NCBI GenBank assembly: GCA_000996275.1 | Contig: LCEG01000001.1 | Span: 186,001 to 250,000, forward strand | From: a candidate division TM6 bacterium GW2011_GWE2_42_60 | Lineage (GTDB): Bacteria > Babelota > Babeliae > Babelales > Babelaceae | Direction: 5' to 3' | DNA length: 64,000 nt | Part shown: piece after piece, positions 48,884 to 60,530 of the stretch | Layout of the letters: each line of letters opens with the position of its first letter | Numbering within the stretch: the stretch's first letter is position 1 | Notes under the pieces: model-generated | What the model was told of the DNA's origin: nothing | The model's input: the letters and a program-made list of their open reading frames with translations, nothing else | Database searches by the model: none | Position numbers and translations under genes: made by a program

Positions 48884-49963
48884 ATGAAAATCCCTTTTCC
48901 TCGGATGTTTCCCTTTAAAAAACAGGGACGATTTTTAAATTATATTGAAGAGCAGCAAGAAGGTTTTGCTGGTGTTGTGCGTATGTGTACACGAGCAATT
49001 TTTCAGCGCAATACGGGTATTGATGAACTTCGAGCAGGGTGGGTTACACTACCAGGAGCTCCTCATGCTAGTGAGACAGCGTCAGGTGACGATATTCCTC
49101 GTATTCAATGGATTGGCCATTCTTCTTTTTTGATTACTATTGGTGGATTTACGGTTATAACAGACCCCATTTTTGGGAGCTCTTCATGGCTTTTCCCCCG
49201 GTGGACACCGCCAGGAATTTCTCTTGATGCGCTGCCGCATATTGATGCAGTTTTAATTTCCCACAATCATTATGATCATCTTGATATTCCAAGCATTCGT
49301 TTGATTGCCAAGCGGAATCCTTTGGTTCAAATCTTTGCGCCTTGGGGTGACCGGGCATTGCTTGTTCGATCAGGTTTTTCTCGGGTGACTGAGTGCATGT
49401 GGTGGGATGATTTTTCGCTTGTACATGATGCGCTTAAGCAAAAGCTTGAGCTCTATTTTCTACCTGCCGTGCACTGGTCTCGACGTGCCTTATTTGACCG
49501 GAATCGGTCTCTCTGGGGGAGTTGGATAGTGCGAGTTGGCGAACAGGCTGTCTATTTTGCCGGAGATACCGCTTCGGGAGAGCATTTTAAAGCAATTGCT
49601 CACGAGTTTCCGTCTATTAATACAGCTCTTATGCCTGTAAGCCCCTGTGAACCACGTGCATCCATGCGCTTTGTACATCTTTCTGCTGAAGATGCCGGAG
49701 AGGCGTTTCTTGCGCTTGGTGCCCATCGGTTTGTTCCAATGCATTGGGGAACATATCACTTTGGGGAAGATCACCCTTTGGTGCCGATTCGGCGTCTTAC
49801 TGCTTGGTGGGAACGCGAAAAAGAGCAGCTTTTAGACCGACAACTAGCACTTCTTAAAATAGGGGAATGTTGTGTCTGCACTCCAGCTCTACCTCAAAAA
49901 GTTGAAGAACAGCAATCTCCTCTTTATGTGCGTCCTGCTAGAGAATCAGAGCTAGCGCCTTAG
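48884..49963 (+). CDS. metallo-beta-lactamase-fold hydrolase, NAPE-PLD-like
   Basis: 359 aa. IQWIGHSSFLITIGGFTVITDP starts the fold. The metal site SHNHYDHLD (HxHxDH), PAVHWSRR, FAGDTASG and PMHWGTYHFGEDHP are all present. The pattern matches N-acylphosphatidylethanolamine-hydrolysing phospholipase D-like proteins, which are found in bacteria with uncertain substrates. A phospholipid or N-acyl lipid substrate would suit an organism exposed to host membranes (inference). No signal peptide. Its 3' end overlaps the convergent ankyrin gene by 26 nt. Confidence 0.88.
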   Translation: MKIPFPRMFPFKKQGRFLNYIEEQQEGFAGVVRMCTRAIFQRNTGIDELRAGWVTLPGAPHASETASGDDIPRIQWIGHSSFLITIGGFTVITDPIFGSSSWLFPRWTPPGISLDALPHIDAVLISHNHYDHLDIPSIRLIAKRNPLVQIFAPWGDRALLVRSGFSRVTECMWWDDFSLVHDALKQKLELYFLPAVHWSRRALFDRNRSLWGSWIVRVGEQAVYFAGDTASGEHFKAIAHEFPSINTALMPVSPCEPRASMRFVHLSAEDAGEAFLALGAHRFVPMHWGTYHFGEDHPLVPIRRLTAWWEREKEQLLDRQLALLKIGECCVCTPALPQKVEEQQSPLYVRPARESELAP

Positions 49964-51794
49964 CAACAGCCTCGGAAGAACTTCCCGTTGCAGGTGCTTT
50001 GAGTGCCGCTAAGTAATCTATTATCTCTTTCCATTCTCGAGCAATGGCAATATCCCGTGCGGTTATGGAGGTGTTTGTGGTGTTTTGTTGTACTGAAAAG
50101 ACTTGTCCTGGATTTGCAACAAGGCTCTTATTACTTGGATTTTCAACAAGTTGTTTAACAATTTCTTTATTGCCAAGTGCGGCTGCAAGATGAATTGGGT
50201 AGAAGGTCATTTCAGCAAGTCCTGACCCTTCTGTTTTGACGGGTTGGTTTGGGTTAACGCCGAGTTTGAGGAGTAACGCAACAAGGTCGGGTGAATCTGC
50301 CTTAATGGCAAACCAGAGCGGCCGTACTAATGCTTTTTCTCTTTTTACGGGTGTTGAAAAATTAAAGCCCTGTTTTTTAAAGAGTTCGAGCTGGGGTTTG
50401 TCGATTTTACGGAGTGCAAGCGCAATTTTTTCTTCGGGGGGGAGTTTGTTGGGAAAGGCTTCTGCAAGAAAATCACCAACGTCTTCGTGATCATTTTCGT
50501 ATGCGGCAAAAATAGCGGTATTGTCGGGGCCTACGAGTGCATTTTTATTCACCAGGTATTTAACGACATCAAGAAGGCCTTCCCGTGCATTTGCAACAAG
50601 TAAAGCATCATTATTGCTGTGAATATCAACTTTGGCTTTTTCAAATAATTGAATAAGTGCAATGGAGCGTGCAAGCAGAAGCGGGGTAAGCCCTGCTTTA
50701 TTAGGTGTGTTCGGTTCTGCTTTATTTTTCAAGAGAAAAGCGGCTATATCAAGTTTTTTTTGTTTGACTGCTTCGTGAAGAAGCGAGTTCCCTTGGTCGT
50801 CTTTACTTGAAGGATTGAGCCCATTTTCGACAAGTTTTTTAATAGTGCTCCAATCATTTGCGGCGCGGGCGCTGGGAAGTCGGAGTTCAAGAAATGTTTT
50901 ATTGCGCTTATCTGAAGCAAGTAATTCATCCGCAACATCAAGATGATTGTATTTGAGTGCTTCTTTAAGTGCTGACCCCTCGACATTCATTTTTATGCCG
51001 CGGCGGAGCAGCTCTTTGACGATTGCAAGTGAGCCGTTACGTGAGGCAAGCTCAAGAAATTTCCCCTTATCGACGTTGAGGTCAGCGCCTGTTTTTGCAA
51101 TAAGCATGAAAAGATCAAAGTTCTGCGCTGTCAAAAGCAGAGGAGTTTCGCCTGCATTGTTGGTGATTGCAGTTGAAGCGCCTTTTTTAAGAAGATAATC
51201 AACCTCATCAATCTTCGCAGCTTTAAGTGCATAAAAGAGAAGGGTATTGCCATCAAAAAAGCGTCGATCAATGGGGAGCCCCAATTCTATGTTATTGCGA
51301 ATGCTCTTCCAGTCGTCTTTTTTGAGTGCGTTTTCTGTTTCGACTTGGAGGATGCCGTGGTTTTTTGGATTTGGACTTTTAAGTAGATTTGCAATTGTTT
51401 GAAATCCTCCATTGAGAGCTGCTCGATAGGCATTTCCATCAGGTTGTAGTTGAATACCCTGTGTTAAAAGCCATTCGACCAGTTCTTGGTTTCCGGCGCC
51501 AGCAGCTTTTGTCAAAAGTGAGTTGCTATCGACGTGCCCGTCGGCACCAGAAAAGATAAGGAATTGAGCGATCTTTGTTTTATCTTGTTGGTAGGCGTAA
51601 AGGAGGGGTGGCGTTCCCGTTTCGTCACGTAGGTTGACGAGTGAGTTGTCTTTGCCCACAAGCTGTTGTACAAGATCAAGATTGGCTGCCTTGACGGCAT
51701 CGGTAAGTGCGTTTGGATGTAAGCTTGAATAAAACCCTAGAATGAAAAAAAGCCCTAACCGGGCTAAAATTTTATACGCCTGACTTTTGATCAT
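49938..51794 (-). CDS. exported ankyrin-repeat protein with a 150-residue super-repeat
   Basis: 618 aa from the ATG at 51794 (AAGGAG, 7 nt spacing). N-terminal signal/anchor ILARLGLFFILGFYSSLHPNA. The rest is about fifteen ankyrin units (for example GNSLLHEAVKQKKLDIAAFL, FYPIHLAAALGNKEIVKQLV). Groups of about five units are themselves repeated: DWKSIRNNIELGL and DWSTIKKLVENGL open two blocks that align over ~130 residues, and the N-terminal block matches more weakly. Ankyrin proteins of intracellular bacteria often bind host proteins; here export makes a host-facing or envelope role possible. Confidence 0.9.
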   Translation of the reverse strand: MIKSQAYKILARLGLFFILGFYSSLHPNALTDAVKAANLDLVQQLVGKDNSLVNLRDETGTPPLLYAYQQDKTKIAQFLIFSGADGHVDSNSLLTKAAGAGNQELVEWLLTQGIQLQPDGNAYRAALNGGFQTIANLLKSPNPKNHGILQVETENALKKDDWKSIRNNIELGLPIDRRFFDGNTLLFYALKAAKIDEVDYLLKKGASTAITNNAGETPLLLTAQNFDLFMLIAKTGADLNVDKGKFLELASRNGSLAIVKELLRRGIKMNVEGSALKEALKYNHLDVADELLASDKRNKTFLELRLPSARAANDWSTIKKLVENGLNPSSKDDQGNSLLHEAVKQKKLDIAAFLLKNKAEPNTPNKAGLTPLLLARSIALIQLFEKAKVDIHSNNDALLVANAREGLLDVVKYLVNKNALVGPDNTAIFAAYENDHEDVGDFLAEAFPNKLPPEEKIALALRKIDKPQLELFKKQGFNFSTPVKREKALVRPLWFAIKADSPDLVALLLKLGVNPNQPVKTEGSGLAEMTFYPIHLAAALGNKEIVKQLVENPSNKSLVANPGQVFSVQQNTTNTSITARDIAIAREWKEIIDYLAALKAPATGSSSEAVAKALALIL

Positions 51795-51824
51795 TACGTT
51801 ACTCCTTTTTACGTATATATCGGA

Positions 51825-51853
51825 AGGGGCCCTTCTGTTATTGAAAGGCCCCT
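51825..51853 (-). terminator. hairpin between the cysteine synthase and ankyrin genes
   Basis: On the minus strand GGGGCCTTT pairs with AAGGGCCCC around CAATAACAG. The tail is TTCCGATATA, only weakly T-rich, so it may terminate or attenuate transcription from the cysteine synthase gene into the ankyrin gene. Confidence 0.5.
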
Positions 51854-51861
51854 CGGGTTTT

Positions 51862-52776
51862 TTACTCGAAATAATTCTTAGTGAGGTAGGCTCGGCCAGA
51901 GTCTCCAAAGATGATAACAACGATGTCTTTTGGTGAGAGCTTTTTTGAATACTCATAGGCAGCATACGCAACAGCACCACTGGATGGACCAAGTAAGAAG
52001 CCATGTTTGTGGGCCATTGTTTTGAGTATTGCTATGGCATTTTCGTCGCTTACTCCAATAAATTCATCAATTGGTGCGGCTGCTACGTGGGGAGAGTCAT
52101 AATCGACGCCGAGTCCTTCAAGCTGGTATGGCTGAGGGTGCCCTTTTGTCGAAAGGTAAGATGTTGCAGCGTCAACACCAACAACGACAATGTTTTTGTT
52201 CCGTTCTTTGAGATAGGATCCGGCACCACAAATGGTTCCTCCGCTTCCTGCAGCTGCAATAAAGTGTGTTATTTCACCACCCGTTTGATTCCAAATTTCG
52301 GGGCCGAGGCTGTAGTAATGAGCACGAGGGTTGTCGCGATTAAAATACTGAGCAATCATAAACGAGTTTGGGGTTTCTTTATGAATGCGAACGGCCGTGG
52401 CATAGTATCCTTCTGGATCTTCAAGATCACCAGTCGGTTTGCAAATGACGACTTTTGCACCATATGCCGCGAGTGTTGTTTTCTTTTCTTTACTTACTTT
52501 TTCAGAGACAGTAATGATAACAGGATACCCTTTTATGGCTCCAATCATTGCTGTTGCAATGCCTTGGTTTCCCGATGAAGCTTCAATAATTGTTCCGCCT
52601 GGCTTGAGTTGTCCTGTGCGTTCAGCTTCTTCTATCATAAAAGCAGCTGAGCGATCTTTTATACTGCCGGCAGGGTTAAGATATTCGAGCTTTGCGTAAA
52701 TGCGAGGTGGAGTGCCAAAATTGACAGCGACAAGCGGAGTGTTTCCAATTGCGTGAATAAGACTTTCGTAATACAT
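51862..52776 (-). CDS. cysteine synthase family PLP enzyme (CysK/CysM-like)
   Basis: 304 aa fold-type II PLP enzyme. IGNTPLVAVNF starts the fold; the PLP Lys is in NPAGSIKDRSA. EASSGNQGIATAM is the Asn loop, and AAAGSGGTICGAGSYL is the phosphate-binding loop. Full length for O-acetylserine sulfhydrylase or a CBS-like enzyme. Without a cysE neighbour the actual substrate pair is open. Separate from atpE upstream by 82 nt. Confidence 0.88.
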   Translation of the reverse strand: MYYESLIHAIGNTPLVAVNFGTPPRIYAKLEYLNPAGSIKDRSAAFMIEEAERTGQLKPGGTIIEASSGNQGIATAMIGAIKGYPVIITVSEKVSKEKKTTLAAYGAKVVICKPTGDLEDPEGYYATAVRIHKETPNSFMIAQYFNRDNPRAHYYSLGPEIWNQTGGEITHFIAAAGSGGTICGAGSYLKERNKNIVVVGVDAATSYLSTKGHPQPYQLEGLGVDYDSPHVAAAPIDEFIGVSDENAIAILKTMAHKHGFLLGPSSGAVAYAAYEYSKKLSPKDIVVIIFGDSGRAYLTKNYFE

Positions 52777-52858: not shown

Positions 52859-53809
52859 TTATGAAATCATAAAAATAAGTCCAAATGAGATGAGTAGACC
52901 GTAAATAACATTGGTGTCAATTAACGTTTGCGCGATGATGCTTGTTCGCGAGATAGTTGCATATTGTTCTGGGTGATAGGCAATTTGCAAACATGCTGCG
53001 GCGGCTGTTTTCCCTGAGCCAATGCCAAGCCCGAAGGTGCACATACCAATTGAAATGGCAGCGCAAACGCAAAGAATGCCGTTAAGTAGTAGGGTTCCTG
53101 GATGTGTAAAAAGAGTAAGAATGGAAACAACCAGTGCAAAAAGTACCGGTGTTTCTATCATTGCTTGGCTTACGAATGAAAAAGAAAAAATCTGGTTGTA
53201 AGCGTGCCGATTGAGCCCAATGCTTTGACAAGAACTTCCTCCAAAGCGAGCAAGCCCAAGTGCGGGGCCGAGGGCACCCAATCCAAGTGCGATGCCACTT
53301 GCAAGAAGCCCTAACGCTTCTGGAACGGTGGTGATGCTTGCTGCATTATTTCGAATGATAAGGCTAATTAAAAAACCAAAAATAATAGGTGTCTGTTGAA
53401 TTGAGAGTGTGAGAAAGAGGAGGTACATGATTTTTTGGGAAAAAAGCGGTTGTCGCGCTACAGCGGCGAGTGCATTCTTAATGGGGAGTGAGGCAGCCAT
53501 TCCAATAGCACATCCGGGGATACCGAGTGCGCAGGCTATGCCGAGATGGGCAATCGCTTCAGGAAGTGAGTGGGCACCGCCCAATAATACTATGACTGCA
53601 ACAATGGTAGCGAGGAGTGCCGCGGTTTCGGTAAGTGCAAGAGAGATCATGATAATCTTGCTGACGTTTTCACGCGATGCTGGTTGTTCGTTGAGCGTTT
53701 TGAGCGCTGCACGCGCTGAAGTTGCTTGTCCAACTGCGGTTCCGATGATAGGAAGCCCAGCGGTAAAAGCTATCGATAAAAAATGGATACTGGTTGTTGG
53801 ATCAAACAT
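52859..53809 (-). CDS. atpE: ATP synthase c-subunit with four fused hairpins
   Basis: 316 aa instead of the usual ~75-90. Four tandem hairpins of ~79 residues, each with Gly-rich helix 1, a polar loop and helix 2. The ion-binding carboxylate positions are E61 (ALTETAALLA), Q139 (SIQQTPIIFG), E219 (AMIETPVLFA) and D298 (TLIDTNVIYG), at spacings 78, 80 and 79. Hairpin 2 has the loop ARQP. Hairpin 1 helix 1 keeps Gly-Gln (AVGQAT), part of the Na+-type signature. One site in four has lost its carboxylate, which lowers ions per ATP. Starts 2 nt after the atpB stop. No other ATP synthase genes are nearby. Confidence 0.9.
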   Translation of the reverse strand: MFDPTTSIHFLSIAFTAGLPIIGTAVGQATSARAALKTLNEQPASRENVSKIIMISLALTETAALLATIVAVIVLLGGAHSLPEAIAHLGIACALGIPGCAIGMAASLPIKNALAAVARQPLFSQKIMYLLFLTLSIQQTPIIFGFLISLIIRNNAASITTVPEALGLLASGIALGLGALGPALGLARFGGSSCQSIGLNRHAYNQIFSFSFVSQAMIETPVLFALVVSILTLFTHPGTLLLNGILCVCAAISIGMCTFGLGIGSGKTAAAACLQIAYHPEQYATISRTSIIAQTLIDTNVIYGLLISFGLIFMIS

Positions 53810-53811
53810 AG

Positions 53812-54660
53812 TTATTGCTTTCTTTCTGAGTGAGCATGCGATGTTTCTGGTTCACTACTCTGAGTTCCCATTGAGATATAGGTTAAACTGAGAGTTGAAA
53901 ATACGAATGCCTGGATAAAGGCTTCAAACAGTCCGAAGAAGAGCGTTACGATAAGATTGAGACCTGTTGCAAGAGTAAGTACCTGTATAAGTAGGGAGCT
54001 GGCTCCTGCTTGTTTAAGGAGCGTTGCAATCATTGATCCGCCAAAAATATTTCCAAAAAGTCGTAACGAAAGTGACATGAGGCTCGAAAGCTTACTTAAA
54101 AGCTCGAGGGGAAACGAAACAAGCCCGACAATAAGATTTAAAAGGCCTCTGAGTATGGCCATGATAATGGAGCCAAAGGTGAGTTTTTTTGAGGGGAAAA
54201 GAGCGAGTGGCATTTTAAAATATTCTTGAAGAAAACCGATCAGCCCATGAGCGCGCAAGGTCTCTATTTGCGTGTAAGAAAAGGCGATAATGCCAAACGC
54301 AAAGGTTGTGTAAGGATCCTTTGTTGGTTCTTCAAACCCAGGAATAATAATAAGAGAGTTGCAGATGACTAAGAAAATAAAGAGCGCTGAAACGTAATAA
54401 AAATAGCGATCTTTGACGCGGCCAAAAGCCTGATGCACCATTCCCATAAAACTGCGCAGAATCCAGATGGTAATATGCCCACCGATTGAGTCTGGTTTTC
54501 GAAGTGAAAACCGCCCTAAAAGCGCAAGTACAAGAAGCACTCCAAGAGCCGCCCAGGTATTGACGACTACTTCTTGGTTGACCGTAAAAAATGGTAGAGA
54601 AAGTCCTAATGGTGCGATAAGGTTTAATGGTTCACCATGCCCCATTATGTCCATATTCAT
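53812..54660 (-). CDS. atpB: ATP synthase F0 subunit a
   Basis: 282 aa. Five to six membrane helices. The essential Arg is in SLSLRLFGNIFGGSMIA, and the last helix has GLFEAFIQAFVFSTLSLTYIS with the expected Gln. Forms the ion half-channels facing the c-ring. Pairs with the fused proteolipid gene just downstream; atpF/H/A/G/D/C are absent here, so the F0 genes are split from F1. GAGGG precedes the ATG. Confidence 0.95.
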   Translation of the reverse strand: MNMDIMGHGEPLNLIAPLGLSLPFFTVNQEVVVNTWAALGVLLVLALLGRFSLRKPDSIGGHITIWILRSFMGMVHQAFGRVKDRYFYYVSALFIFLVICNSLIIIPGFEEPTKDPYTTFAFGIIAFSYTQIETLRAHGLIGFLQEYFKMPLALFPSKKLTFGSIIMAILRGLLNLIVGLVSFPLELLSKLSSLMSLSLRLFGNIFGGSMIATLLKQAGASSLLIQVLTLATGLNLIVTLFFGLFEAFIQAFVFSTLSLTYISMGTQSSEPETSHAHSERKQ

Positions 54661-54904: not shown

Positions 54905-56341
54905 TTAACCGAGTTTTTTAATGCCGCGGTGCTTCCAATATTCGTGAACAATCGCAGTCGAACCGGTAATGACCACAAGACCATGCCGCTCATCAACGGT
55001 TGTTTTTGCAGCATCAAAGGCCTGAGCAAACGAAGCGAATGCTGTAGCTTTGATCTTCTTTGCTTTGAGGTCACTGACGACTTGCTCGACATTCCAGCAT
55101 TCAAGCTCGCCATTACCAGGAGTTGCTGAGGCATTATCGATTGGGCAAATAAATGCTTGGCCAGATGTTTTTTTGAAGAAATAACGAAGTGCTTTGAGGA
55201 ATTCTTCATCATGGAGCGCGTTCTTGCCGGCGCCAAGAATAAAGGTAAGCCCTTTAATTGGACGTTGGTAGTGGAAGAGACGGACACCAAGAAGGACGTT
55301 TTCAAGAGCATCGATATTATCTGCACTGTCGAGAAGGATTGAAGGCTTTTCTTTGTCTAAAAGCTCGAATTTTGCAGGGAGCGTGCTCGCTGTTTCTTTC
55401 CAGAACTGTTCAACGGTCTTCTTTGGGTTAAGTTTTGAAATGCGTTTTGCTTCGAGTGTTGGCCGACCGCGTTGTCCTTTTTGTTTAATCAAAAGACTGT
55501 CATTAACGATAGTGGCGCCATTGGCTGAAAAATGGTTCATGTAGAGCGAGGCAATACGTTCAGCCATTGCACCGCAACGGCCAAAGAGCTGTTCAAATGG
55601 ATAGGCAAGCGGTGCCAATTTGCGGATAGGCATAGCCCAGATACCGCCTTGTGCAACCGTTATGTCTTCAATCATTTGAAGGTGAGTTTTCATCTGGTCG
55701 CCCGCAACAACGTGAGTTCCTTTTTTAATCACGCCTGCCATTTCAACAAGAGATTGCTCGAGAGCTTCTTGGGAAAGGTCAGTACGGGAAGGGGTAACAC
55801 GGGTGATAGCGACGACTTTAGCGTGGCAGACATTGACGGGGTCAACTGTTCCGCCATTGTGAGTTTCTAGAATAACGACATCAGTTTTTTGTTCTTCACA
55901 AAAGAGCAGCGCCATCATGGTAAGGATTTCACTACTGTTACAGGACAGTTTGAGCCGTTCGACTGCATCAATAACGTTATTACCGATATCGGTAAATGAT
56001 TTATTTTGAATGTAGGTGCCATTAAAAGCAATACGTTCATTGTAAGAAAGGATATGTGGTGACGAAAGTGCCCCTACAGAAAGTCCTTCTGCTTGCAATA
56101 ATTTTGTTGCAAAATGGATGGTTAAACTTTTGCCATTGGTTCCGCCAACAATAATCGCGTCACGCTTTTGTGAAATACGATCAAAATGGTGGTCAAGTTG
56201 CGTCATACGTTCGAGCGTCTGCTCGTGCGCTGCAACGTTCCAGTGTTCGTTCAAGTAGGTAACAATCTCTTGGTAGCTACGCAACCGGGTCGCGGCTGAG
56301 CTCTGTTCAGAGATGCCCTTTTTAATTTGTGTGGTTTCCAT
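54905..56341 (-). CDS. Mur-ligase-family protein, FolC-like (divergent)
   Basis: 478 aa from the ATG at 56341 (CAGGAG upstream). Mur-ligase ATPase with P-loop VGGTNGKSLT, then ALSSPHILSYNERIAFNG, which is close to the folate-family TSPHL...ERI.inG segment, and ETHNGGTVDPVNV in place of ExGxGGxxDxTN. The usual LDH after the central strand is replaced by VTPSRTD. The second half holds FILGAGKNALHDEEFL. Best call is folylpolyglutamate/dihydrofolate synthase; the changed P-loop and missing His leave room for a different amino-acid ligase. No other folate genes nearby. Confidence 0.72.
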   Translation of the reverse strand: METTQIKKGISEQSSAATRLRSYQEIVTYLNEHWNVAAHEQTLERMTQLDHHFDRISQKRDAIIVGGTNGKSLTIHFATKLLQAEGLSVGALSSPHILSYNERIAFNGTYIQNKSFTDIGNNVIDAVERLKLSCNSSEILTMMALLFCEEQKTDVVILETHNGGTVDPVNVCHAKVVAITRVTPSRTDLSQEALEQSLVEMAGVIKKGTHVVAGDQMKTHLQMIEDITVAQGGIWAMPIRKLAPLAYPFEQLFGRCGAMAERIASLYMNHFSANGATIVNDSLLIKQKGQRGRPTLEAKRISKLNPKKTVEQFWKETASTLPAKFELLDKEKPSILLDSADNIDALENVLLGVRLFHYQRPIKGLTFILGAGKNALHDEEFLKALRYFFKKTSGQAFICPIDNASATPGNGELECWNVEQVVSDLKAKKIKATAFASFAQAFDAAKTTVDERHGLVVITGSTAIVHEYWKHRGIKKLG

Positions 56342-56565
56342 CACTATAAACTCCTGCCGTGTAAATTCCATATTTTATAAATAAAGGTCTTTAATACCAC
56401 AAAAAATGAGGGTTTTTATCAGCACCCTTTATCTATATTTTCATTCTCAAGACTCGTTTTCATTTAAGTCTTATTAGCATTAATTTACCAGAAAGAATAG
56501 AAATGTCAAACAATAAATAGAAGAAAGCCTTATGTTGGTTGTTAAATTTCAGAGAGAATAATATC

Positions 56566-56634: not shown

Positions 56635-59600
56635 TTATGAGGGAACACCCCACGTGAGCCATTCGGCGAGGGACGTTATTGAGCCGTTTGGTGTTACCAC
56701 GGGAACTTCAATGTCTGTGTTGGGGGCGAATGGCTTCGTTTGCCCAATGGCGACGTATTTTTGCCCACAAATATTTAATCTTGAGGTCCATTTGCCAGTC
56801 GTGGCTTGTACGAGATCATATTTATAGCACTTTTTGCATTTTATTGGTAATACAGAGGATTTTGAGTCATTATTGAGAGGCATTACCAGAAGCAGTGTGG
56901 TGACGGGAGAAAATTGTGAAGCAGGTCTTGTGGCATAGACTGAAAGATACACTTCTCTCAAGAAAAACGTTGATTGTCCTGATTTTCCATTGAGTCCGAC
57001 GATGAAAATATTTTTATAGTTTGGATCAAGGAAGTTTAGAGCCTCGAGTTTTGGCCACTTCCTTTTATTAATACCTTTAGCAAGTTCTTCATCATAGTTA
57101 ATCCACTCTACTGTTGTTGTAGAGAGCTTGTTTTCTTTTATATATTCTTCAATTTCTTTTTTTACGTTCTGTTGGTCAATGGGGTTTTCGCCCTCAGTTG
57201 AAATAATAATCCGTAACTTCGGCGTTTTTTTGTATTTGAAGGCAAGTGCTTTTTTGAGTCCCTCTTCCCAGTCTGTTTTTTCTTGTTCTTCTGATGAGAG
57301 CTTTTTCGAGCTGGTCGAAGATGAAGCTGGTTTTTTTATTTTCTTTGCTGCAGCCCCACCAACACCCCACGTAAGCCAGTCGGCGACTGTGGAGAGTGAT
57401 CCATCGCGCTTGAAGACGATGAAAGGGGTGGAATCTTGATAAACGGGTGTTGATTGGCCGATAGTTACATATTTGCTTCCGATACTATTGAATTTAAATT
57501 TAATTGAATACAGGCTATCAAAAAAACCCCTAAATATTATTTCAAAATCAGTTTTTACTTTTTCGTCTAATGGCACAACAAGCAACAGTGTTGTGTTGGG
57601 AGAAAAATCTGTTGTGCGAGTATATTTAGTGAAAGCTCCATCAGGTCTAAAAAAGATATATGACGCATCATCAGTTTTTCTGCCATACACAAAGATGTTT
57701 TTGTAAATGTTCTGGTCTGTATTTTCAAGATTGCTTAATGTAAGAAGTGGAGAGTCAGAATCATACGTTACGCTTTCAATGCCATCGAAGAGATCTTTAT
57801 GTTGGTCAAGATATTTGATGACTTGATTTTTTGCCTCCTCACTGTTGTTTTTAGTGTTAGGCGTTGAGGTAATAATTAGCCGAACTTTAGGTTTTTGATT
57901 GTAGGTTAAAGAAAGAGCCTTCTCGAGGCCTTTTTCCCAGTCTACCTTTTTTTGTTCTTCTGGTGAGAGTTTTTTTGAGCTGGTCGATGACGAAGCTGGT
58001 TTTTTTACAGGTTCTTCAACAACTGTGATTTTAGTTGGTTTTACGGACTCTTTCTTGGGTTTAGTTGATTTTTTTGTTTTCTTTTCTGATTCGGCCTTAG
58101 CCTCACCAACACCCCACGTGAGCCAGTTGGCGACTGTGGAGAGTGATCCATCGCGTTTGAAAACAATAAATGGTGTGGAATCTCCATAAACGGGTGTTGA
58201 TTGGCCAATGACGACATACTTGTCTCCAGAGGAATCTCCCTCAGCTTTATTAGTATAATAGTGGGTTTCTAACCCTAGGTGGATCAAGATTGAGAGCTTA
58301 TCTGTCTCTTCTTCGGCTAATGGCACTATGAGCAGAAGGGTTGAGTTGGGTGAGAAGTCTGTTGCCTTTTGATAAGCCGAAAAATCTCCGTCAGACCTAA
58401 AGAAAAGATATGCTTTGTCCGAAGCTCCCCTCCCGGTAACAAAGATATTTTTATAATTGCCATCGCGCAAATTGAGCAGTTGAGCTTTTTGATCATAATT
58501 TACAATTTCGATGGGGCCCTCAAAGAGATTACCCTGCTTTGTGAGGTAGTCAGTGACTATTTTTAAGGCTGCATCGTTATGCCCAGGTGGGTTTGAAGTT
58601 ACAATTAAACGGAGTTTAGGTTTTTTGCCTTCGGACAGATTGTAGGTAAATTTCTTTGCTTTTTCAAACCCTTTTGTCCAAAGATCTTGCGGGTTCGGTT
58701 CTTGAAGAAAAATCCCAATTGATGGCTTTTTTGAGCTGGTCGATGACGAAGCTGGTATTGTTGCTGGTTTTTCAACAACTTTGGTTTTAGTTGGGTTTAC
58801 GAGCTCTTTCTTAGTTTGAGTTGGTTCAATTTTTTTTTCTATTTTTTCTTCAATTTTCTTGGGAATCGCTTTTGCGGGAACAAGTGGAAGCTTAAGCCAG
58901 TCTTGAAGAGTCATGTTCGATTCTTTTGCAGAGTTTCCGTCAGCAGGGTCTACTGAATAAAGAGTTAAGTCAGAGAGCTGATTATCTTTAAAAATGGCAG
59001 ATGCAAGGGTGATCGTGCCCTGAAGGTCTTCTTGCGAGCGGTCCGTAAAGGATTGTGTCAGTTTGTATTCAAAAGTATCGCGCTGGAGCTTTTCTTCTAA
59101 GCTATTTTCTTGAGTAGAAAGTAAAACGAGCATTATAAGAATGGCACTTTTATCTTTGGGTGTGGTTTCAAAATCACCAAAGTAATTACGCACAGTTTCA
59201 TCAAAAGTCTCTTTGTGGAAAAGCACTGGAGATGGCGTCCAATACTTTGATGTACTTATTGTCGGTTTCCATCCAGCGATCAGAATAGTTTTGTATCTTT
59301 GTTCGATTTGAAAATCTTTTGTCAGATGTTTTTTTGCTTGATCATAGTCTTCTGTGTTGACTGTTCTAAACAGCTTATCGCCTGAATTTTTATTGAGTTT
59401 TTTTAAAACCCCAGTAAGTGTGTTACGATCAAAAAGTTTTTCATCGTCACTTTGAACAATAACACGGACTGCAGGAAGACCAGGTGCCGCTTCAATGTCT
59501 TTTTTTTCGTCTTTTTTTTCTAGTATCGGGGATGATTCTTTTTGCTTCTCTTCTATTGAAAGAATCGAGGGTTGAACACGTTCAAGTGCCTTGGAAAAGT

Positions 59601-59682
59601 CGGTAAATTCATCTCCACAGAGAGAGAATAAGCAGAAGAGTGTGGTGAGGAGGGGTAGGTATGATAATTTTTTTAGGGGCAT
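56635..59682 (-). CDS. exported protein with four tandem ~200-residue repeats, unknown
   Basis: 1015 aa from the ATG at 59682; the open frame extends to 59898 but that part overlaps pilD. Signal peptide LSYLPLLTTLFCLFSLCG. Four repeats joined by Lys/Pro/Ser-rich linkers (ASSSTSSKK occurs three times). Each well-kept unit contains a strand KxRLIITS, the motif YKNIFVxGR, the stretch DFSPNTTLLLVVPL, KYVxIGQSTPVY, PFIVFKRDGSLSTV and WLTWGV at its end. The first repeat is the most diverged. Units 2 and 3 are nearly identical in their last ~30 residues. No known family recognised. Lies at the end of the rpsU-rbfA-pilD strand run, 74 nt after pilD. Confidence 0.88.
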   Translation of the reverse strand: MPLKKLSYLPLLTTLFCLFSLCGDEFTDFSKALERVQPSILSIEEKQKESSPILEKKDEKKDIEAAPGLPAVRVIVQSDDEKLFDRNTLTGVLKKLNKNSGDKLFRTVNTEDYDQAKKHLTKDFQIEQRYKTILIAGWKPTISTSKYWTPSPVLFHKETFDETVRNYFGDFETTPKDKSAILIMLVLLSTQENSLEEKLQRDTFEYKLTQSFTDRSQEDLQGTITLASAIFKDNQLSDLTLYSVDPADGNSAKESNMTLQDWLKLPLVPAKAIPKKIEEKIEKKIEPTQTKKELVNPTKTKVVEKPATIPASSSTSSKKPSIGIFLQEPNPQDLWTKGFEKAKKFTYNLSEGKKPKLRLIVTSNPPGHNDAALKIVTDYLTKQGNLFEGPIEIVNYDQKAQLLNLRDGNYKNIFVTGRGASDKAYLFFRSDGDFSAYQKATDFSPNSTLLLIVPLAEEETDKLSILIHLGLETHYYTNKAEGDSSGDKYVVIGQSTPVYGDSTPFIVFKRDGSLSTVANWLTWGVGEAKAESEKKTKKSTKPKKESVKPTKITVVEEPVKKPASSSTSSKKLSPEEQKKVDWEKGLEKALSLTYNQKPKVRLIITSTPNTKNNSEEAKNQVIKYLDQHKDLFDGIESVTYDSDSPLLTLSNLENTDQNIYKNIFVYGRKTDDASYIFFRPDGAFTKYTRTTDFSPNTTLLLVVPLDEKVKTDFEIIFRGFFDSLYSIKFKFNSIGSKYVTIGQSTPVYQDSTPFIVFKRDGSLSTVADWLTWGVGGAAAKKIKKPASSSTSSKKLSSEEQEKTDWEEGLKKALAFKYKKTPKLRIIISTEGENPIDQQNVKKEIEEYIKENKLSTTTVEWINYDEELAKGINKRKWPKLEALNFLDPNYKNIFIVGLNGKSGQSTFFLREVYLSVYATRPASQFSPVTTLLLVMPLNNDSKSSVLPIKCKKCYKYDLVQATTGKWTSRLNICGQKYVAIGQTKPFAPNTDIEVPVVTPNGSITSLAEWLTWGVPS

Positions 59683-59756
59683 AGAAAACTCTCTTTTTTT
59701 GAATGGGTATGCTTCAAAATGAAATTCTAGTGAAGCCGAATCAAAAATGCAATTAA

Positions 59757-60530
59757 TTAGAAAAGCGTAGTAAGTGGTACAGCTAAAAAGAGCGAGATAA
59801 GCCCGCCCAGGGCCAAAAATGCTCCAAATGGAAGAGGTGTTGTGCGCGTTGCTTTGCCCTGAATGAGCATGAAAACGCCGATAAGTGATCCGATACATGA
59901 TGCAATAAAGAGTGAGCTCCAGAGCCCGAATGGCCCTAAAAATGCCCCGATCATTGCGAGCATCTCGGCATCACCAAGTCCCATGCCAATGCGTCCTGTG
60001 ATAAGCTGCGAAAGAAATCGCACAGACCATAAGATACCGTAGCCAAGCACTGTGCCAATGAGCGAAAAAGTGAGTGAAAGCGGTAAAAGATTGAACCAGG
60101 CGCCTAGCCAGGCAAGCGGAATAAGAAAGAGTGTACAATAACGGAAAATCACCAGCTGTTCAATATCTGTTCTTAACGAGACTAAGAGCGCAGAAATAAA
60201 AACGGCGAGAAATGGAATAAAACGCAGTGGAAAAGTAATAAAAAGAAGTCCAAAACTAATGCCGCCAAGCAATTCAAGAGTTGGATAGAGCCATGAGATA
60301 GATGCTTTACAGGTACGGCATCGGCCGCGTAAAAAAATCCACGAAACTAAAGGAAGAAGCTCAAACCATCGCAATTGTCGATCGCATTGCGGACAGTGTG
60401 ATCGAGGTCGCCAAAAAGGGAGATCAAAAGCAAGACGAAAAGCGACAACGTTTAAAAAAGAGCCCCAAAGAAGTCCAAATACTGCAGCGAAAACGAATAA
60501 AATGACGCTTTCATCGAGTATTAAGAACAT
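59757..60530 (-). CDS. pilD: type IV prepilin peptidase
   Basis: 257 aa. N-terminal methylase-like region with the two zinc Cys pairs (CPQCDRQLRW, CRTCKASISW). Aspartyl protease motifs: SLRTDIEQL (first Asp) and GMGLGDAEMLAMIG (GxGD). About eight membrane helices. Cleaves and N-methylates type IV prepilins or pseudopilins, so the genome should encode a pilus or competence system. Its start overlaps the rbfA stop by one nt. Confidence 0.94.
   Translation of the reverse strand: MFLILDESVILFVFAAVFGLLWGSFLNVVAFRLAFDLPFWRPRSHCPQCDRQLRWFELLPLVSWIFLRGRCRTCKASISWLYPTLELLGGISFGLLFITFPLRFIPFLAVFISALLVSLRTDIEQLVIFRYCTLFLIPLAWLGAWFNLLPLSLTFSLIGTVLGYGILWSVRFLSQLITGRIGMGLGDAEMLAMIGAFLGPFGLWSSLFIASCIGSLIGVFMLIQGKATRTTPLPFGAFLALGGLISLFLAVPLTTLF

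Follow-up and report, generated by a model that had tools for sequence, protein, structure and literature searches.

How the rotor of a bacterial F-type ATPase can be built when one of its c-subunits consists of four fused hairpins is the question raised by a locus in a stretch of 64,000 nucleotides (in the following, the window) from candidate division TM6 bacterium GW2011_GWE2_42_60 of the phylum Dependentiae/Babelota (contig LCEG01000001.1, positions 186,001 to 250,000; 1.14-Mb assembly, 94% completeness). The gene is an open reading frame (ORF) of 951 bases with an ATG start on the minus strand of the window (52859..53809), and the opposite plus-strand frame is riddled with stops. Four matches to the Pfam model ATP-synt_C (PF00137; E 2e-31, 108 bits) lie inside its product of 316 amino acids, and AlphaFold2 with a 48-species alignment predicted helices for eight transmembrane segments (mean predicted local distance difference test score 97.6). 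In helix 2 of hairpins 1, 2, 3 and 4, the ion-site position is occupied by E61, Q139, E219 and D298, respectively (referred to as sites 1 to 4). On the minus strand the codons of these residues are found at 53627..53629 (counted from the first base of the ORF at 53809), 53393..53395, 53153..53155 and 52916..52918. An earlier interpretation of the DNA letters (the sequence-only reading) had named the four fused hairpins and these four residues correctly, without giving a strand. Upstream of the four-hairpin gene, separated by 2 bases and also on the minus strand, AtpB is encoded (53812..54660; 282 amino acids; PF00119 E 4e-32), the F-type a-subunit with the stator Arg motif LRLFGN. That a tetra-hairpin protein adjoins a bacterial F-type a-subunit is indeed unusual, as had been remarked. 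It is probable that each cell possesses one F1Fo enzyme whose ring would be a hybrid of one or few four-hairpin subunits and single c-subunits, and that this enzyme serves as an ATP-driven ion pump.

The four-hairpin protein is not restricted to this genome. In 101 species genomes of the phylum, all within one order, a profile built from 48 homologues showed a match in 100 genomes, and a full-length protein was present in 96 (310–351 amino acids, four hairpins in 96/96). Thus, AtpE proteins of about 300 amino acids, which had been proposed as a check, do occur in related genomes. All 68 genomes with a completeness of at least 90% and low contamination showed a match, and the five genomes lacking a full-length copy (G011, G052, G059, G061 and G071; single c only, or nothing) are 53–78% complete. 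The gene is also carried by the complete 1.22-Mb genome AP025250.1 (Dependentiae bacterium Noda2021). A scan of named genomes with an 11-row alignment, whose patterns reach close relatives only and say nothing on absence in other groups, yielded 26 loci; all titles that name a group refer to Dependentiae, Babeliales or TM6, and the rest read only "bacterium".

Tandem homologous repeats are prone to mis-assembly, and an assembly error or a chimeric ORF had been put forward as a result that would overturn the fusion. Within a species, however, the hairpins of one protein are mutually merely 17–28% identical, so that mis-assembly of repeats offers no explanation. As full-length copies were obtained for 96 species from many independent assemblies, including the complete genome, this alternative was rejected and its probability is negligible. 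In the best explanation, the fusion of four c-hairpins preceded the radiation of the phylum.

The genomes examined also encode a single-hairpin c with an intact site, mostly of about 80–93 amino acids. The other result named as a refutation, namely that close relatives possess single c-subunits of about 80 amino acids, was therefore half borne out: such proteins exist in the relatives and in the window's genome, but the four-hairpin form is there as well. Each genome contains one a-subunit, one alpha, one beta and one gamma, yet two c genes; beyond alpha and beta, PF00006 gives one weaker match per genome, to a Rho-like protein. Alpha, beta, gamma, delta and epsilon were all found, and the stator and F1 genes are F-type. 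In the window's genome, the F1 genes are located elsewhere, as the sequence-only reading had supposed: a cluster of deoxynucleoside kinase, c, b, b', delta and alpha (L031), a beta-epsilon cluster (L166), and gamma (C1:118974-119801). The subunits b and b' were assigned from position and length only; two overlapping b-like genes (125 and 171 amino acids) lie between c and delta (L031:7135-8024), and the product of 125 amino acids has no Pfam match. In all of the 94 testable species, the a-subunit gene is followed directly by the four-hairpin gene, both being on one strand; the gap has a median of -1 base, a spacing typical of translational coupling. Since the a-subunit occurs once per enzyme, this strict linkage fits, weakly, with about one four-hairpin subunit per ring.

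The PF00137 hairpins, the carboxylates at sites 1, 3 and 4, the PF00119 neighbour and the F1 genes in the genome identify the protein as an F-type subunit c. Two other assignments were rejected. Membership in the K-subunits of V/A-type enzymes does not agree with the F-type stator and F1 genes, and the NCBIfam V-type models gave scores far under the cut-off. An N-ATPase (alternate F1F0) does not agree with the single F1Fo set per genome, and the alternate-F1F0 models for c and a, TIGR03322 and TIGR03306, reached only 96 of 131 bits and 60 of 302 bits, respectively.

The best match of the four-hairpin protein in the PDB, by profile (E 6e-24) as well as by fold, is 4bem_J, the c1-subunit of the hybrid ring of Acetobacterium woodii. 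In A. woodii and Clostridium aceticum, the fused c1 exhibits an E-to-Q exchange in hairpin 2 (QT) and occurs beside single c (PMC7911925). This F/V-hybrid rotor (two-hairpin c1 plus single c2/c3; PDB 4bem) is similar to the system described here in being F-type, in combining fused and single c, in the E-to-Q exchange in one fused hairpin and in the Na+ motif of the single c. As in a hybrid rotor, fused and single c of the Dependentiae occur side by side in genomes with one a and one F1. One hairpin without a carboxylate, a further mark of such rotors, is present in a clade of 72 species (71/72) and is lacking in a clade of 24 species. There are also clear differences. The c1-subunit has two hairpins (V-type) instead of four, and c1 and c2 are encoded in one atp operon, whereas here the gene of the fused c is coupled to that of a, and a separate locus holds the single c together with b, delta and alpha. 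The acetogens are free-living and synthesize ATP, whereas ATP-driven pumping is probable in these intracellular bacteria. Co-assembly of the two c types is shown by a crystal structure for A. woodii, whereas for the Dependentiae it would follow by analogy.

Sites 1, 3 and 4 retain a carboxylate in 96, 91 and 95 of the 96 species, respectively (site 1: E 92, D 4; site 3: E 91, G 2, Q 2, S 1; site 4: D 56, E 39, G 1). The Asp at site 4, which had been pointed out as an oddity, is thus ordinary in this family. The expected general conservation of Q139 was not found either: site 2 is Q in only 62 species, E in 24 and M, V or G in 10 (7, 2 and 1), and these states are divided by one deep branch. 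In a tree of the four-hairpin and a-subunit sequences, calculated after removal of the site columns and with no root inferred, a deep split (Shimodaira-Hasegawa-like approximate likelihood ratio test 100) separates a clade of 24 species, with E in 23 and G in one, from a clade of 72 species, to which the window's species belongs and in which site 2 is neutral in 71, G079 being the lone exception. Over both clades, site 2 is neutral in 72 of the 96 species, and the difference between E and non-E requires three changes on the tree. Scattered drift was rejected as the cause, because non-acidic residues occur in 72/96 cases at site 2 but in only 6/288 at the other three sites, with few changes on the tree. 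The loss of the site-2 carboxylate is a clade trait. As the single c has Glu in 72/72 species, an ancestor with four acidic sites would be the simplest reading. Since site 2 is E in one deep clade and neutral in the other, the fusion cannot be explained by a neutral site.

The helix-1 Gln of hairpin 3 is kept in 24/24 species of the smaller clade and is mostly Leu in the larger one. Hairpin 2 is the one that has drifted furthest from the single c (18% identity). Its cytoplasmic loop carries a nearly invariant RQP motif (R119-Q120-P121, minus-strand codons 53447..53455; R 92, Q 88 and P 95 of 96 species), whereas hairpin 1 retains mainly Q42-P43 and the other loops of the protein do not have the motif; outside hairpin 2, most species have at best a partial motif, in the fused protein as well as in the single c. 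In the c-subunit of E. coli, the RQP loop motif contacts gamma and epsilon. One may speculate that hairpin 2 is an anchor for these two subunits.

In the rings of I. tartaricus and E. hirae, each site combines Glu and Gln of one hairpin with three ligands of the preceding hairpin, namely Ser/Thr, Tyr and a backbone carbonyl (PMC2359735); the two faces in the four-hairpin protein were assigned according to these sites. Position 28 in helix 1 of hairpin 1 is Q in 55 and E in 17 species (Q/E 72/96). Glu is functional at this position in F. nucleatum (PMC3692424), whose two-carboxylate c resembles these 17 proteins in the exchange of the helix-1 Gln but is a single hairpin in a uniform ring. At the other end, hairpin 4 retains Thr/Ser directly after the carboxylate (position 299) in 87/96 species and is the only hairpin of the protein with Tyr at +5 (position 303; 91/96), a residue also present in the single c. 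The corresponding positions of hairpins 1, 2 and 3 are L/I/M, F and F, and the helix-1 Gln position is I/L in hairpin 2 and mostly S in hairpin 4. The Na+ motif (helix-1 Gln/Glu, helix-2 Glu-Ser/Thr, Tyr +5) is complete in the four-hairpin protein only across the faces of hairpins 1 and 4. Judged by these residues, the free ends seem to offer ordinary c-c contact chemistry, and the fused inner contacts appear to have drifted.

The single c of most species possesses the full Na+ motif (72 species: Q 65, E 72, S/T 65, Y 61). In six species (G044, G050, G051, G056, G064 and G072), the helix-1 Gln of the single c is replaced by L or M, and in most of them the Glu is followed by Ala. The single c of G044, G050, G056, G064 and G072, with L or M for Q and A for S/T, is H+-like. 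This suggests scattered switches of the single c from Na+ to H+ within the phylum, so that the coupling ion may vary. A joint loss of Tyr in the single c and in hairpin 4 (3/11 versus 1/60) is suggestive, but two of the three cases stem from one family.

With regard to the direction of work, ATP/ADP translocases of the TLC type were detected in 98/101 genomes. In at least five species (G024:C3, G029:C9, G032:C11, G034:C9 and G038:C12), all members of the 24-species clade (Glu at site 2), the TLC gene is located directly behind beta-epsilon (atpD-atpC). The epsilon ORFs comprise only 79–112 amino acids, and of the two domains only the N-terminal beta-sandwich is matched (e.g. G000:C4:13506-13742 and relatives). 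The C-terminal helical domain (PF00401) was not found in 34 genomes with a model that is insensitive, as it detected this domain in only 4/9 F-type controls. In many bacteria, ATP hydrolysis is held back by this domain. Complex-I-type antiporter subunits (PF00361) occurred in 1/34 genomes, the sole match being G027:C2:14027-14677 (complex-I/Mrp antiporter type). Because of the translocases, the epsilon reduced to its N-terminal domain and the near absence of complex-I-type subunits, the best reading is that the enzyme is run mainly as an ATP-driven ion pump. Such pumping in a host-dependent bacterium had been suggested by the sequence-only reading, with which these observations agree, and reverse operation was proposed earlier for Chromulinavorax destructans (PMC6561590).

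Taken together, the four-hairpin protein would be the rotor sector of the c-ring in the single F1Fo-ATPase of the cell, and single c-subunits would complete the ring around one (or few) of them, as in the hybrid rotor of A. woodii. With its two free ends, the fused protein would dock onto single c-subunits, Glu61 and Gln/Glu28 at its start and Thr/Ser299 and Tyr303 at its end each representing one half of a c-c site. The three inner sites would have drifted, and in the larger clade hairpin 2 would be mainly structural and pass the a-subunit without an ion, while its RQP loop may anchor gamma/epsilon. ATP imported by the translocases would be hydrolysed, Na+ or H+ would be pumped out, and the membrane would be energised. 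Taken as a whole, this explanation is probably correct. Na+ F-type rings with 11 hairpins are listed in the literature (PMC3692424). If the ring is hybrid, each turn of an illustrative ring of this size, with one four-hairpin subunit and seven single c, would move 10 (larger clade) or 11 (smaller clade) ions, i.e. 3.3 or 3.7 per ATP. With such counts (about 10/3 versus 11/3), a motor with a neutral site 2 is not necessarily one of low ratio. The low ratio of ions to ATP proposed earlier does not follow, since a single c with an intact site coexists, and for the same reason the ring need not consist of three or four fused copies, as had been assumed.

A ring built of four-hairpin subunits only, for example three of them (12 hairpins; 9 sites in the clade with Q; 3 ions per ATP), with the single c in a separate ring or used under other conditions such as ATP synthesis outside the host, would be in line with the coupling of the four-hairpin gene to a, with the location of the single c in another cluster with b, delta and alpha, and with the mutually complementary end faces. 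But two rings would have to share only one a and one F1, both c genes are retained in reduced genomes, and in the A. woodii precedent both types co-assemble. Furthermore, the Q and E clades, both reduced and translocase-bearing, would have ion/ATP ratios that lie a third apart (9 versus 12 sites). Such a ring, which would correspond to the low-ratio rotor of the sequence-only reading with a switch added, we regard as unlikely. Even less likely is a role of the protein in the membrane sector other than that of an ion-carrying rotor part, i.e. as an assembly scaffold or structural sector seeding the ring (AtpI-like) or as a plug. The strong drift of hairpin 2 away from the single c and the inner sites without parts of the usual ligand set would be understandable in that case, but the retention of the carboxylates at sites 1, 3 and 4 across a deep phylum is hard to explain without ion binding.

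Several points weigh against the hybrid ring working as an ATP-driven pump. Covariation between single c and four-hairpin protein was uninformative, as the positive control failed: adjacent hairpins scored no higher than distant ones. The faces of hairpins 1 and 4 could likewise pair with one another if the ring were composed entirely of four-hairpin subunits. Hairpin 1 has no Q/E28 in 24/96 species, although the single c usually retains Q there. The truncation of epsilon leans mainly on ORF length, given the insensitivity of PF00401, and the survey of other ion pumps covered PF00361 only, with decarboxylases, pyrophosphatase and terminal oxidases outside its scope. A stricter form of the hybrid ring is an obligately asymmetric rotor, a pump-only F1Fo found phylum-wide, with exactly one four-hairpin subunit per ring, gamma/epsilon fixed by RQP and, in most species, an ion-free step at a set angle. 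It is possible, but we consider it rather doubtful.

Serial fusion of c-hairpins is also known from other ATPases. Archaeal A-type K-subunits comprise three hairpins in Methanocaldococcus and 13 in Methanopyrus (PMC2359735). They belong to A/V-type enzymes, and the Methanopyrus hairpins keep all ligands, whereas the fused c of the Dependentiae is part of an F-type enzyme (PF00119 a, F1 alpha/beta, delta, epsilon) and is accompanied by a single c. The c, c' and c'' subunits of eukaryotic V-ATPases and NtpK of Enterococcus are likewise fused, as double hairpins, one of which has lost its site; they differ in their V-type stator and catalytic subunits and in having two hairpins. The ring of E. 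hirae is homomeric, and the c-ring of the yeast V-ATPase is heteromeric with a defined make-up.

The surroundings of the a/four-hairpin gene pair in the window comprise genes of other kinds. The four-hairpin gene is followed by a gene for a pyridoxal-phosphate enzyme of the cysteine-synthase type (51862-52776) and, directly downstream of the latter, by one for a protein of 688 amino acids that resembles ankyrin-repeat proteins by eye (49938-52004, minus strand). On the other side, a protein of 488 amino acids (54905-56371, minus strand) shows by eye a motif of the folylpolyglutamate-synthase/Mur-ligase type (GTNGK) and has no Pfam match at 1e-3. A protein of 1087 amino acids (56635-59898, minus strand) seems to contain about three internal domain copies, with the motifs YKNIFV.GR...FFR.DG and KYVTIGQSTPV repeated (by eye).

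In a literature search that did not extend to most subscription journals, we found no description of a four-hairpin F-type c, nor of two c types in Dependentiae. The four-hairpin c is apparently undescribed and probably represents a hitherto unreported variant of hybrid rotor. Its near-universal presence in the phylum and its constant pairing with the only a-subunit mark it as an established design. The phylum offers a ready-made series of rotors in which a single ion site is varied, with four (or nearly four) acidic sites in 24 species and mostly three in 72, which makes the passage of a dead site, the asymmetry of the ring and the tuning of ions per ATP by site loss testable. In addition, the way in which energy parasites may energise their membrane from imported ATP can be pictured in concrete terms. 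If the hybrid ring is true, these bacteria would do so with an asymmetric rotor built of two kinds of c part.
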